Of a DNA stretch of 64,000 nucleotides, positions 9,408 to 45,406 are shown one piece after another. The notes beneath the pieces were generated by a model. That model was not told the DNA's origin. It was given only the letters and a program-made list of their open reading frames with translations, and did not search any database. This DNA is from Hoplostethus atlanticus (Eukaryota > Chordata > Actinopteri > Trachichthyiformes > Trachichthyidae). A program made the translations under genes and the position numbers. Every line of letters starts with the position of its first letter. The stretch's first letter is position 1. The DNA lies in contig JAXDDX010000012.1 in assembly GCA_034670405.1 (NCBI GenBank), positions 5,381,501 to 5,445,500 of the forward strand, in the 5' to 3' direction.

Positions 9408-9552
9408 GGATGCTAAGAACATGGCCAAGGACGTGAACGACACCCTGATCGAGATGATCAGAGCGGAGCTTCAGCTGGACCAACTGGACGCCATGAAGAG
9501 ACTGGCGGGGCTAAGAGAGGAGAAACGCTACCTACAGGACATCTGGGGTTGA
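9408..9552 (+). CDS. mtrr: MTRR terminal coding exon and stop
   Basis: The final coding exon completes a Gly codon (GG|G) and encodes [20 protein letters not shown], then a helical segment, then [13 protein letters not shown] before TGA at 9550-9552. The DAKNMAKDV motif and the C-terminal KRYLQDIW(S/G) are diagnostic of MTRR; the conserved aromatic near the C-terminus stacks on FAD in this family. The C-terminal length is as expected, with no truncation. The 3' UTR follows directly. Confidence 0.96.
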
Positions 9553-10680: not shown

Positions 10681-12362
10681 TACAAGAGGAAATGGAAATT
10701 CTTTGCAAGATAATGAGCTCTGATTGATTGGGATTGATTGTTTTTTTTTAAATTTAGATAATTTGATTGTTCAAGGTGACTTTGGTCAGAAGATGATGGC
10801 GTAGTCTAGTAATTGAAGGCTTCTCGCTATGGGCTTCTTAGCGCGCCACAGAGCCCTAGAGAGAGGCTCCTCAGAATTAAATCTTCTAACAGGTCTTTTT
10901 TTATTTATCCTCTTGTACGGAGAGGAGAGAAAAACATGTTTACAATCTCCGCCGCCTGCGCTGTAGATGACACCCCATTCAATACATTTTTTCGAGCAAA
11001 GTAAACAAAACATTGACTGTCGCAGAAAACAATCCCCGGTAGTGAATAATTGGTTTAATACGGTGTTGCTGAAGGTAGAGCTGTCCTTGTGTTTGTCCAG
11101 GCACAGTTCGCTGCACCTCCTTGCCCTCCTCATCACCCTCATCTCTCAGTGTCCTGCTGCAGAGGACGACAAAATCAAAATAATGATGCTGTGTGCATGT
11201 GCATGTGTATGTACGACGAGATCGGGTGCTGCTGGGCTTGATGCATCATGAGGATGTATAGCCTCCACTTAATGTAGGACCCCTACTTCATTTGTGTGTG
11301 TTAGATAAATTACATAAACAAACGGCGTGCTGTAACAAATGAGGATGTTTCATCAACGCAACAAGACCCTGACCGTGACTAGTGTGTGTGAGAGGTTTTG
11401 GTACCAGGGGATCGGCTGAGTCTTTGAGCATGCTGCCGTTATTTACCCGGGCTATTAACATGCTCTCATCTTCATTTAAAAAGAAAAAAAAAAAAGACCC
11501 CCACCAGAAGACTGAGAGCCTGCTGGCCACTTCTACCGCCATGCCTGACAAGCACCTAGGACTGATGAAGTTTTAAATTATGGCTTCTTAATTAAAAAGG
11601 TTCAAGGTGCCTTTTTATCCCGCAGCGAAAACCAGAAGACAGAGCCGAGGAGATAGTCAGGAATAAATCAAGAGTGCTGGAGGTCGGTGTGACCGGAGGA
11701 TAGCGGCACCTCTATGATAGATACCCCTTGTTAAGAATGGCTTAAATGAAGCAGGAAGATGTGTGCTGAAGATAATGACTGTTATTATCAAAGTGTTGAG
11801 TGAGCCCACGTGGGGAGATGCCGGTTATTTCAATCAGGTTTTTACAAAGAGGTTTTTGGAAAACACCTGCCTGACGTCCGGGGTCTGGCTGCAGAGTGTG
11901 AAAGTAGTAATCAAAGTAACTTGAACCTGCCACACTTTCCTGCCCTGGTCTGCATTCTGCTTGAAGTGCTCCTCAATTAGACGGGTGACAATTTATCCCC
12001 TTCATTTAGCTTATCCCTCGGGATTTGACTTCAATCCAAACAATGCTGGTGTATTACAGATACGGCAAACCGGATATTATTGATGACAACATCGTTTATC
12101 CCTCTTTTGTACAGTCTCTCTTGTGAGTTTCTAACAGAATAAGTTTCTTTTTGAAAGTTTTCATTCAGTTTGAAAGTGGTGCCGCTGTGGAGGAGTCCGC
12201 TTGGAAAGCTTCAGTCTCTGTTTGAGCTCTTCTGGGCTCGGCCTCACCCGTGGGTTTTATCATTAAAGAGGACACTTCCACTCCGTCTCTGTTGTTCTCA
12301 CTCTGCAGTCAATGACCCAGGGATGTCAACTCAGCGCTTTGATGCAGCATCGATGCTAGGCG

Positions 12363-13594: not shown

Positions 13595-13850
13595 TTCAGG
13601 GTCACAGGCGGCTGGAGCTTTTCTCAGCATGCATTGGGTAGAAGACAGGAAAACACCCTGGACAGGTCACCAGTCCATCATAGGATGAACACAGATGGAC
13701 TGACAATGTGGCTGACAATCACATTCACACCTATGGGCGGTTTAGAGTCTCCAAGCCCCCTGAATGTGGGAGGGACATGGGGAGAACATACAAACTCCAC
13801 ACAGAAAACGGTGGGGCCAGGAATCGAACCCGAGACCTGTGAGATGATCT
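13595..13850 (+). mobile_element. Degraded interspersed repeat, probably the tail of a non-LTR retroelement
   Basis: The phrases 'ggctggagctt', 'accctggacaggtcacca', 'cacattcacacctatggg', 'tttagagtctcc', 'catggggagaacatacaa' and 'aactccacacagaaa' occur in order. This order is the hallmark of a very common fish interspersed repeat, in which the same phrases accompany text such as 'cagtccatcgcaggg' and 'gaacccgggacct'. I recognise it from fish genomes but am not certain of its formal class or strand. The copy is diverged and internally shortened. Confidence 0.6.
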
Positions 13851-14013
13851 GTGGAGTTCATCACGGACGAAGGGAGGCAGAAGTAGAACAACATTAAAAA
13901 GAGGAAATGATTGGCCATAAGGAGCTGGAAATTGTGTAAAATAATGACAGAGGAAGAGAAAACATAAGAGGCTTAAGAAACAATTTCCCCTCTGAGCAGA
14001 GAGAGATGAACAG

Positions 14014-41020: not shown

Positions 41021-41140
41021 TTAATAGTCATCGTAGGTGTTGAGGTCGGTGAAGTATGCATTGGTATAGGTCTTCCCGGCAAGCTGTGGGTTGAAGTACT
41101 TATTTCTTTCCTCCAGAATCAGGTTGTTCTTATTGAAGGC
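41021..41140 (-). CDS. sema5a: SEMA5A terminal coding exon (cytoplasmic tail)
   Basis: This is the last coding exon of semaphorin 5A, a transmembrane axon-guidance protein with an N-terminal sema domain, seven thrombospondin repeats and a short cytoplasmic tail; it signals through plexins and proteoglycans. The 120-nt exon follows the acceptor 'ctattcacag' (41150-41141 on the minus strand) in phase 0. It encodes AFNKNNLILEERNKYFNPQL followed by AGKTYTNAYFTDLNTYDDY and a TAA stop (41023-41021). The NKNNLILEERNKYFNP and KTYxNAYFTDLN blocks match the vertebrate SEMA5A C-terminus almost residue for residue; SEMA5B has a different ending. The seven exons found total 1140 nt, or 379 residues plus stop. 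Confidence 0.96.
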   Translation of the reverse strand, partial: AFNKNNLILEERNKYFNPQLAGKTYTNAYFTDLNTYDDY

Positions 41141-42470
41141 CTGTGAATAGAAGAAATAGATGGAGGGGAGAAAGTGAGAAGAGTCAGCGTGGACTTCTTT
41201 ATTAGACATGGATCAAGTGATAATTCAGCGTAGATGGCAAGGTAAAGCAAAACCATCTAACAAAAAAAAAGCCTTTTGAGCTTATAGGAGAATAGCAACA
41301 CAAATCAATGGGAGGCCGCTCAGTGAACGCAACATACATTTCACAGAGCAAGGTCAAAGCATTAGCAAACAGGCTGGAAAAATGATAAACCACTACAGGG
41401 CTAAATTATTTTGATGCGCATCCGTATGTCCACCTCTGTCATCTCTAATACCCAACATCAGCAGCTTTTATGGCCCTCAGATTGTTGGTCCTCGAGGACA
41501 AGCTAAACCATAAAAATCAATCAAGTGGGAGTCGTTTTGTCTGTTAAACAATAAGGAAGAGCCATGGGGGCATCTCTCTGTCCCTGCATGGCATGGTAAA
41601 CATAGAACGAGCTTCTGATGCGGTGCTTGATACAACATCAGCAATTTGGCAAATGGATGTGTGCGCATATCCGGTCTTTGCAGTGTGTGCTGCGAGTCCC
41701 TTGGGGCGGTGTAATTCAACACTTGATGATACTGCATTTGCCGATGATGAATGTTTCCGACTGACACTGATAGGGAATGCGTGTGCTGGACAAAAACTCA
41801 TACGTTTTGCTTCCACCCCATTATGTGATTTACACACAAAGGGAATTGTAATCAACACTCCGGCAGCCCAGAGACGGTTATGCATCTCCGCAGGTGGCCC
41901 CGTAGCTGCTTTTAAACAGCTGTGCTAAGATGGTTGTTAGCACCATCTACTTTGTCTTCTTTCCTTAAACCTCTTTAATTGGCTGAAGAGTGATTACAGA
42001 GTTTCTGGCGCAGTAAACAGAATCTGCTTTAACAATGGGGTGGCATTAGTGATAGAGAGGTAACAGAGGAGCATAATAAAACAGCATCACAATGAATTTC
42101 ATTTCTCAGCGCCAACCCATTAAATCAAACCACCAAGACTGGTAAAAATAGAAGGACAAAACAGGGACGACAAACAAGAAATAAAACATGCAAATGGAAG
42201 CAGGTTGTTGAGAGAGGAAAATGAGGGAGGAATACACTGCCTTCTCACAAGCCTGGAGGGAGGGGAGGTCCTGCGGGATGGAGGGATGGAGGGATGAAGG
42301 GGGTCCGAGCAGAGAAAGAGAAACTAGAGTCTGTACTCCAACCTGCCACACACAGGAAGTGCCACAGCAAGTGGGAGGGGCGCGGTGGGGAAGAGGAAGA
42401 AGTGGTTGTGGGGTCAAGAGGTTGTTGGGGGGTCAAGTGGCTGGATGTTGTAGAGGTCAGAGGTCAGTGG
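41141..42470 (-). other. SEMA5A intron segment
   Basis: This lies between the constitutive last exon and the candidate alternative exon. If the alternative exon is used as a terminal exon, part of this stretch would be its 3' UTR. A variant ATTAAA is present at 41979-41974 on the minus strand, about 490 bases after that stop. The open frames near 41544-41928 have no support. Confidence 0.6.
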
Positions 42471-42572
42471 TTAGTAGAAAATCTCCAGGCCACGCATGGA
42501 CACCCCCATGTTAGTGGAGAGAGGCTGGTGCATGCCGTGGTCGTCCAAGGGCAAGAGTACCGACACATCTGG
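42471..42572 (-). CDS. Candidate alternative last exon of SEMA5A
   Basis: On the minus strand a strong pyrimidine-rich acceptor, 'cccattcctctcctccttgcag', directly precedes 42572. From there, in phase 0 (the phase left by the transmembrane exon's AAG|gt donor), the frame reads PDVSVLLPLDDHGMHQPLST and then NMGVSMRGLEIFY before TAA (42473-42471). Used in place of the exon at 41140-41021, it would give a receptor whose juxtamembrane cytoplasmic part is unchanged but whose last 39 residues are replaced by 33 unrelated ones. I do not recognise the peptide and have no transcript evidence. An in-frame open stretch of 33 codons after an acceptor can arise by chance, so this is a prediction. Confidence 0.45.
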   Translation of the reverse strand, partial: PDVSVLLPLDDHGMHQPLSTNMGVSMRGLEIFY

Positions 42573-45134
42573 CTGCAAGGAGGAGAGGAATGGGCAACAG
42601 TCATCCTCAAAGGAGCCACAAAGGAACCCAAAGCCCATAATCTGCCATCTACGAAGGCTGAAAATGCAACTGTACATACAACTACAAACTTTTATGTTGC
42701 GCTGCTCAAAATGATCCAGTTGGCCAAGGAGACCAATATGGATAGTATCTTTCTCCTATGAAACTGACACATAGTAAAATAGCAATGATGGCTAATGTGT
42801 GACATCAGGATTTGAGCTAAAAATCCCGTCCTGAAATACGGCACCCGGTGTTCGTCTTTCCTCGTCATAAACCCTCAAAGGATGGATATTACGGAGCTGT
42901 TAAAATATTCAGTTTAACATTTCACTCGCTTAGCACAACGAGAAAAAATGTAACAGTGTTAATTTGTCATGCAGCTACTTTTGTATTTTCACTTTGCTAA
43001 ACATGCACTGTCCATATTCCCATCTGACTCTATCTGCACCAGAAAACTGGATTATGCTCACCGGCTAGACTCTAATGGCATGACAGATGGACAGTCACCA
43101 TATCTTTATTCTGCAATGAAACTACATTCGGAGAAGTTCGCCCTGAGAAAGGGCATTGGTTCTCACTCAGTGGCTTATCTGTTTTGAAATTTCTACTTTT
43201 ATCCTGATTTTCACTCAATTTCTACATATCTGAAGTTGTATACAATAGTTGTATGAAAGCGCCCTGGTGCCCAACCATTTTAGAACAGGTGACTGAAAGA
43301 AAGCTTTGCCTTGTTATCCTACATCTAATAGCTAAATCAAGTTGAGTGCCACACCAATTTGAGTATGAGTACAAGTGTACAGCTTGGAAAAGCACTGATT
43401 TAGTACCTATAAATTCTGATATATACCCTATGCTTAGCACAGGCAATAGCTGCTTATCAAAGGGAAGGCCAATGACTGCCAGAGCTTAAAACTAGCCAGC
43501 TAGTGTTTGGAACCTGGTGTGCCAGGATATGTCCGTCTGTTTTCACAGACTTCCACAGTTTCTACAGTTTCATTTCACAACCAACACAAGAAATATTACT
43601 AGTGGTACTTGTAATGCCACAGCTTCCTCCCACAGTGTTTCTGAACCACTGACAGTATCTGGAGGCAAAAATAGGAATTGATAGAATATTCAACCATGTT
43701 GATAACACTAATTAAACCCCTCATATTTCACTGATAGACTGTCATATGACACAGTTTTCTATTGTACTAAGTTATTAATTATCAAGTATTAAAAATAGCC
43801 ACATCCATCGCTTCTGGCGCTCAAAAGATGTCAGGGGTTGTTAAAGGATATTGCCAGCTGTTTATTTTTTGTGCCAATCATCTAGGTTGCCCTCCCCTTT
43901 ACATTATTCCTGGTGGAATCTGCATACAGTCAACATAGTTGGAGATATCAGGACTTGATTTCCTTCCTTCAGAAGGAGGCTTTTGCTGGCATTCATTTTT
44001 GTACAGCATGAAAAACAACTTCCACAGATTTGAAAATTGCCCGAGCTAGAGGATTCATCACAGAAAACATGAAGCCTTAATTTGTCACAGTTACTGTTTT
44101 ATCGATTTGTCATTGTCCCTGAGTTGAGCGTTTTCATATCAGTGCGAGCATTATGTTACACCCTGCTTACAGTCAATCACCTGACACCCACAGGAAAGAA
44201 CCCCTTAAAAACATGCCGCCTTATAAACTTTATTATCACCTCCATTTCTTATTTATGGCGTCTTTGTTAGCCGAGACAGCGGTAAATTTCAAGCTAGGTG
44301 TGCCGCCGTAAAGTTTGTATTTTAAAAAATGATGATAAATGTTAAAAAAATCTAATTACATATGGCATGCATTGCACAATGATTAATGGAGATGTAAACT
44401 AGACGTAGACAGAAGTAAAAGGGCTATTACTCTAAATGACACCGGTATTCCCCTTTAAAGTGGATGAAACCCCTACTTTGGAGCTCTGTGGATCCCTGAA
44501 ATAAACCCAGCTGGAGCCTGAAGTTGCTGTGGACAAACACTAATCACCAGCGCTCCCTGGCACTTTAAAAGCCCGCCCGGTAACAGCGGATAAGAGGCTT
44601 TTGTTTGTTCTATGGGGGTTGTTGGATCTCTGTCATTGGCTCTGGTTTGTCTTCCTGTCTGTAACCGAGATACAGTAATGATATAAAGAACCGGAGCGGG
44701 TGCTAAAGCTCGGCCCTCGTCGCCTGCCTACACACTGATTACTGATTACGCTAGTGTGTTATGAGAAAGCAGTGTATGGCCACTGACACAGAACAGAGCA
44801 GAGTCACAAGAGACTGAAGACACACAGTATAGGAGCACACGGAGAGAAGAAGTACACATGGGTATATACTACTACACACTAGAGAGTGTCAGTGCATGAC
44901 AGGAGGTGGTGCTACAGTGAGAGCCATGCAGTAGTCTATTTAATCACAGCTGACACCGGAGGAAAAGGCAAACCGTTGCTCATAGACTGAGAGTGTGAAG
45001 AGTGTGACATCAACTGGTTAATGAAACGTTTAGAAGGAAACTGGGTTTGCTTTGCTTTGCTGTTTCCTTCAACGTGACCCCCGCAAACGGAAAAAAAAAA
45101 CCAGCGTAAAAAAAAAAAAAACCCGGCCACAGAC
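42573..45134 (-). other. SEMA5A intron
   Basis: This intron follows the transmembrane exon. No other exon is supported. At about 44440-44460 the text 'ggtattcccctttaaa' resembles one end of the TTAA-type MITE seen at 14014-14122, without a recognisable partner end. A-runs lie at 45090-45120. Confidence 0.6.
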
Positions 45135-45346
45135 CTTGATGGCTTCCACGGAGTCGTATTTGTCCAGCTTGTTGATGTGGTTGGTGATGCTGGTGTTGAG
45201 CGGCGCGGCCGAGATGGGGTGGATGACGGTGGCGTCGTGGGACTGCTGCTGGTAGCGCTGGCAGTAGGAGTAGACCAGCAGGGTCACCAGGCAGCCCAGG
45301 ATGGAGCTGCTCAGCCCCACGGCGATCATGTGGAAGAGGTTGAAAT
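45135..45346 (-). CDS. sema5a: SEMA5A transmembrane exon
   Basis: This 212-nt exon (phase 1 in, phase 0 out) carries the single membrane-spanning helix. It encodes FNLFHMIAVGLSSSILGCLV, then TLLVYSYCQRYQQQS, HDATVIHPISAAPLNTSITN and HINKLDKYDSVEAIK. The hydrophobic segment runs from about MIAVGL to TLLVY. The Cys and basic residue just inside the membrane (YCQRYQQQ) and the segment DKYDSVEAIK are conserved in SEMA5A. The donor is AAG|gtctgt at 45134. On the sense strand the acceptor is preceded by (CT)23 and then a C-run ending 'ccaccag', so its pyrimidine tract is a microsatellite. Confidence 0.96.

Positions 45347-45360: not shown

Positions 45361-45406
<46 letters not shown>
45361..45406. 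repeat. (AG)n microsatellite forming a SEMA5A pyrimidine tract
   Basis: About 23 AG units on the + strand read as (CT)n on the SEMA5A sense strand and end 14 bases before the acceptor of the transmembrane exon. Confidence 0.95.

Follow-up and report, generated by a model that had tools for sequence, protein, structure and literature searches.

The question raised by this locus is whether the last intron of a fish sema5a gene holds a second last coding exon, which would give the receptor a different cytoplasmic end. The candidate lies at 42471..42572 on the minus strand of the window (the whole stretch of 64,000 nucleotides that was analysed), where the original prediction had proposed an alternative last exon of SEMA5A. 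What had been observed there, from 42572 to 42471, is confirmed by our analysis. We consider the candidate to be a probable exon, ordinary in kind, and give a probability of roughly 0.62 to the reading that sema5a does have an alternative last exon here.

Host gene and splice sites

A class 5 semaphorin gene is represented on the minus strand of the window by its 3' part, with ectodomain exons near 59.2, 50.7, 48.0 and 47.6 kb. A thrombospondin type 1 repeat precedes the transmembrane helix (Pfam TSP_1, 3.5e-09, in exon 47611-47456, the sole ectodomain exon put to Pfam), and the gene closes on an NKNNL tail, as befits this class. That the gene is SEMA5A rather than 5B is our assumption, made by comparison with the human tail. 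The transmembrane exon (45135..45346, minus strand) encodes FNLFHMIAVGLSSSILGC...KYDSVEAIK. The canonical last coding exon (41021..41140, minus strand) starts at 41140 in phase 0 and encodes AFNKNNLILEERNKYFNPQLAGKTYTNAYFTDLNTYDDY, that is AFNKNNLILEERNKYFNP...YFTDLNTYDDY, followed by TAA at 41023-41021. Tail to tail with sema5a, on the plus strand, lies the last coding exon of mtrr (methionine synthase reductase; 9408-9552; PDB 2qtl, 5.4e-14).

The splice sites of the transmembrane exon have two peculiarities. The pyrimidine tract of its acceptor, at 45361-45406, is a pure 23-unit dinucleotide repeat, so that the length of the tract, and perhaps the splicing of the exon, may differ among individuals. 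Its donor at 45134 (minus strand) reads GTCTGT, with an unusual C at +3, and runs of T come next; such a donor is compatible with a regulated choice of the last exon.

The candidate is situated in the last sema5a intron, 1.4 kb upstream of the canonical last exon. Its minus-strand junction is TTGCCCATTCCTCTCCTCCTTGCAG|CCAGATGTG, with 42572 as the first exon base, and from this base the frame gives PDVSVLLPLDDHGMHQPLSTNMGVSMRGLEIFY, 33 codons closed by TAA at 42473-42471. The acceptor consists of a pyrimidine tract ending in CAG (42573..42592, minus strand). The original prediction had described a strong acceptor with a long pyrimidine tract, a 33-codon frame with its stop on the SEMA5A strand between the transmembrane and last exons, and a phase of 0 matching the transmembrane-exon donor. 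The first two can be read directly in the DNA, and the phase is correct as well, since KYDSVEAIK closes on a codon boundary just before the GT at 45134.

How strong is this acceptor? On a vertebrate acceptor matrix that was not trained on this genome, it scores 8.43; the canonical last exon reaches 8.65 and the transmembrane exon 6.02. The matrix was applied to 235 AGs of the intron, among them the canonical acceptor, which alone outscores the candidate, so that the candidate ranks second; the next ones are 42270 (7.42) and 42252 (7.11). In the window, counting both strands and including candidate and canonical sites, 10 of 8722 AGs score at least as high, and at least 33 open codons follow 4 of them. 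In a control of 400 kb, consisting of both strands of 20 segments of 10 kb from the same genome, the candidate score is reached by 38 of 25893 AGs, 12 of the 38 being followed by at least 33 open codons; at least one of these 12 falls inside an apparent real exon. The expectation for one strand of a 4-kb intron is about 0.4 such acceptors, and about 0.1 if at least 33 codons have to be open behind them.

Acceptor and frame alone are therefore unremarkable, and the 12 cases in the 400-kb control weigh in favour of a chance origin, in which a cryptic acceptor born of C/T-rich intron DNA would precede an open frame whose coding appearance is accidental, with no exon at all. We hold this explanation to be unlikely, and it is the rival that survives best. 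The sites at 42270 and 42252 are acceptor-like sequences of this sort: they lie in C/T-rich DNA and open 54 and 48 codons, which do not look coding. What makes the candidate stand out is a coding-like composition in exactly the frame that the donor requires.

Coding-like composition of the frame

The GC content of the candidate at codon positions 1, 2 and 3 is 0.61, 0.33 and 0.79, so that the contrast between third and second positions (GC3-GC2), a measure picked after the candidate was seen, amounts to 0.4545. This contrast climbs at the candidate acceptor and falls past the stop, less sharply. Within the window, after exclusion of the sema5a exons and of the candidate, a contrast of at least 0.4545 is found in 26 of 27795 open 33-codon segments, grouped in three places, the top one of which is the mtrr last exon at 9.4 kb on the plus strand. 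Open frames at 11051-11149 (plus strand) and 13841-13939 (minus strand) display the same contrast as the candidate, and Pfam gave no identification for them.

In the control, 206 of 18065 GC-matched open segments, belonging to 19 separate loci, reach this value. Eleven of the 19 loci are supported as protein-coding by Pfam, by PDB or by an 860-codon frame: four sit in that one frame (its length is the reason for counting it as coding, as its Pfam matches are weak), two in the reverse transcriptase frame of a mobile element, one in an immunoglobulin, one in a dsRNA-binding protein, one in an alanine aminotransferase and two in ARMC8. Among the remaining loci, 5 were assigned tentatively or by weak matches, and 3 yielded no assignment. 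Once the 16 loci regarded as coding are removed, the contrast is reached in 11 of 13973 GC-matched segments and in 110 of 81950 of all segments.

A classifier with learned weights, operating on position-specific base frequencies, removes the hand-picked choice of measure. Its training set comprised 12 GPCR frames, a single long zinc-finger frame and one half of the control loci. Just 32 of 5356 held-out open noncoding segments look as coding as the candidate (7 of 610 when matched for GC), which argues against chance; 41% of the coding training segments do so, in sample. The canonical last exon is nearly level with the candidate, its score being reached by 0.45% of noncoding segments, and the strong intron acceptors at 42270 and 42252 both obtain negative scores. 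One antisense frame of the candidate stretch attains 2.53, compared with 3.03 for the candidate, and holds a stop. A 178-codon plus-strand frame also lies over the candidate exon (42225-42758); its composition is not coding-like, and we take it as due to chance.

Tests based on codons are mildly positive or borderline. The synonymous codon choice of the candidate is near the coding mean, with a p value of 0.053 that leaves room for chance, and is equalled by 1442 of 18065 GC-matched control segments; its codon log-odds are reached by 286 of 4499 segments and, in the GC-matched control, by 1623 of 18065.

Acceptor and composition were then combined in a joint scan, with thresholds fixed after the candidate was seen: the acceptor had to score 5.5 or more, the contrast had to be 0.42 or more, and 33 codons had to be open, whatever the phase. 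An extra control was included, made of 18 loci (four around matches to the transmembrane exon, two longer sema5b-like stretches, which overlap two of these four, and 12 GPCR loci). The scan retained 2 of 226 open frames in the control and 1 of 62 in the extra control. From the window it retained 4 of 81: besides the candidate, these are the last exon of mtrr and, in sema5a, the transmembrane exon and the canonical last exon. The extra-control match is a sema5b-like last exon; of the two control matches, one resembles a zinc finger exon of the ZFHX type (Pfam 0.01, below the cut-off) and the other what we take to be an HMG20-type exon. The six matches other than the candidate thus all have the look of real exons, for two of them by a weak match or a tentative assignment, and this is the second argument against chance. 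The four other sema5a exons and the second sema5b-like last exon were missed, so the scan is specific rather than sensitive. The canonical last exon aside, it found no other frame in the intron that joins a strong acceptor to a coding-like composition.

Relatives and 3' end of the candidate exon

Searched against the 633-Mb genome at the DNA and protein levels, the candidate has one match, itself, and its peptide matches nothing in Pfam or PDB. Other identities were considered for this stretch of DNA. A recognisable repeat or mobile element was set aside on the basis of this sole genome match, in a search whose first step is loose. An origin by tandem duplication of the canonical last exon was rejected, as the alignment scores against the tails of sema5a and of both sema5b-like genes are lower than the shuffle mean, and so was a structured RNA, the single match (41740-41774) being on the opposite strand and far below the family cut-off.

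The sema5a and sema5b-like genes diverged long ago. The transmembrane exon has two weaker relatives in the genome, with 39% and 38% identity, and two more matches have E values of 0.12 and 0.55. The last exons of both relatives carry NKNNL tails (MLNKNNLHMNDET... at L008 and TLNKNNLLPDERS... at L009), and we took these genes for sema5b-like. No counterpart of the candidate peptide was found in the approximately 8 kb that follow the transmembrane exon at either sema5b-like locus: the best peptide scores there are 33 and 35, which shuffles reach in 35 and 23 cases out of 200, respectively.

Past the stop comes a C/T-rich stretch (42343..42470, minus strand), which would be 3' UTR if the exon is terminal, or the remainder of a 230-nt cassette exon. 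Further on, an ATTAAA at 41974..41979 (minus strand) is a possible polyadenylation signal of the candidate, and an AATAAA at 41198..41203 (minus strand), 63 nt upstream of the canonical last exon, is another. As these motifs occur in the control at background rates of 0.54 and 0.84 per kb, they are not significant, and we found no convincing polyadenylation signal downstream of the stop when motifs were compared with control rates. This result, like that on the paralogues in the two stretches of about 8 kb, favours a chance origin.

The lack of a clear polyadenylation signal would also suit a poison cassette exon running from 42572 to 42343 and spliced to the canonical last exon via a donor at 42342, in which case the TAA, 128 nt upstream of the last junction, would make the transcript a target of nonsense-mediated decay. 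The donor in question, CAG|GTTGGA, is among the two best of the interval 42580-42000; however, its score of 0.72 is weak, and a poison exon has no need for a coding-like composition up to its TAA. We judge both the cassette and its decay to be very improbable. Slightly less probable still is an origin outside sema5a, the exon or remnant belonging to a nested minus-strand gene or to an old gene or retrocopy fragment lodged in the intron: coding-like composition is silent on which transcript uses the exon, and mobile-element frames such as the reverse transcriptase frame at control locus L023 also have it, but no parent was detected in the genome at E up to 10 (a distant one could be missed by the loose first step), the intron offers no second frame of this kind besides the canonical exon, and the phase suits the sema5a donor.

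The proposal of an alternative last exon in sema5a therefore retains its principal support, namely a frame that is coding-like by comparison with same-genome controls and is the one required by the donor; it drew no support from the paralogues or from the polyadenylation signals. The exon may already be part of the gene annotation of the species.

The predicted isoform and known systems

We infer the use of the junction, the end of the transcript and the effect of the isoform from these sequence features. If the candidate is an alternative last exon, the phase-0 donor at 45134 would be spliced to the acceptor at 42572, and cleavage and polyadenylation would take place downstream of the candidate, inside the intron. 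The product would be a receptor with unchanged ectodomain, helix and juxtamembrane tail, in which the canonical last 39 residues are swapped for 33 unrelated ones. No such sema5a isoform is named in the literature among the matches listed; passages of one of them, PMC11018898, concern Plexin B3.

The one feature that stands out in the candidate tail is DVSVLL at residues 2-7, which fits the acidic dileucine pattern [DE]XXXL[LI]; neither the canonical tail exon of sema5a nor the two sema5b-like ones contain this pattern. According to PMC2882754, this endocytosis motif binds AP-2, and a survey therein finds it in 15% of proteins overall. The resemblance of DVSVLL to this motif is a pattern match within the tail of a membrane protein, and its role in sorting is predicted; it could turn the isoform into a cargo of AP-2, with a shorter stay at the cell surface. 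Since the pattern also turns up in 8% of shuffled candidate tails, the sorting step is weak and should be seen as a lead only. In a more far-reaching scheme, the choice of the last exon would decide whether Sema5A is made as a stable surface form or as one endocytosed via the dileucine, and would thereby govern the removal of a membrane guidance cue from the surface; the sema5b paralogues show no such switch. This scheme is speculative, and we rate it as improbable.

To our knowledge, the function of the short cytoplasmic tail of Sema5A has been little studied. A natural isoform that swaps the end of this tail, if real, would provide a direct handle on whether Sema5A signals or traffics via its tail. 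Alternative last exons are common, so as a contribution to genomics the addition is modest.

Compared with the canonical C-terminal exon of SEMA5A, the candidate would use the same donor, in phase 0, occupies the same place after the transmembrane exon, and has a similar acceptor strength and coding score. It differs from the canonical SEMA5A and sema5b tails in having no sequence similarity to them: it is devoid of the NKNNL start and of the rest of the conserved tail.

Receptors that vary in this manner exist. Robo3.1 and Robo3.2 differ at the C-terminus, and TrkB.T1 is a truncated receptor isoform in which the cytoplasmic end is changed. In PMC8670310 and PMC4930329, Robo3.1 and Robo3.2 are described as isoforms of a receptor generated by RNA processing. 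The Robo3 and TrkB.T1 isoforms have been seen in RNA and protein, whereas that of sema5a is predicted from DNA only. The predicted logic is nevertheless alike, a constant ectodomain being combined with a cytoplasmic end that differs.
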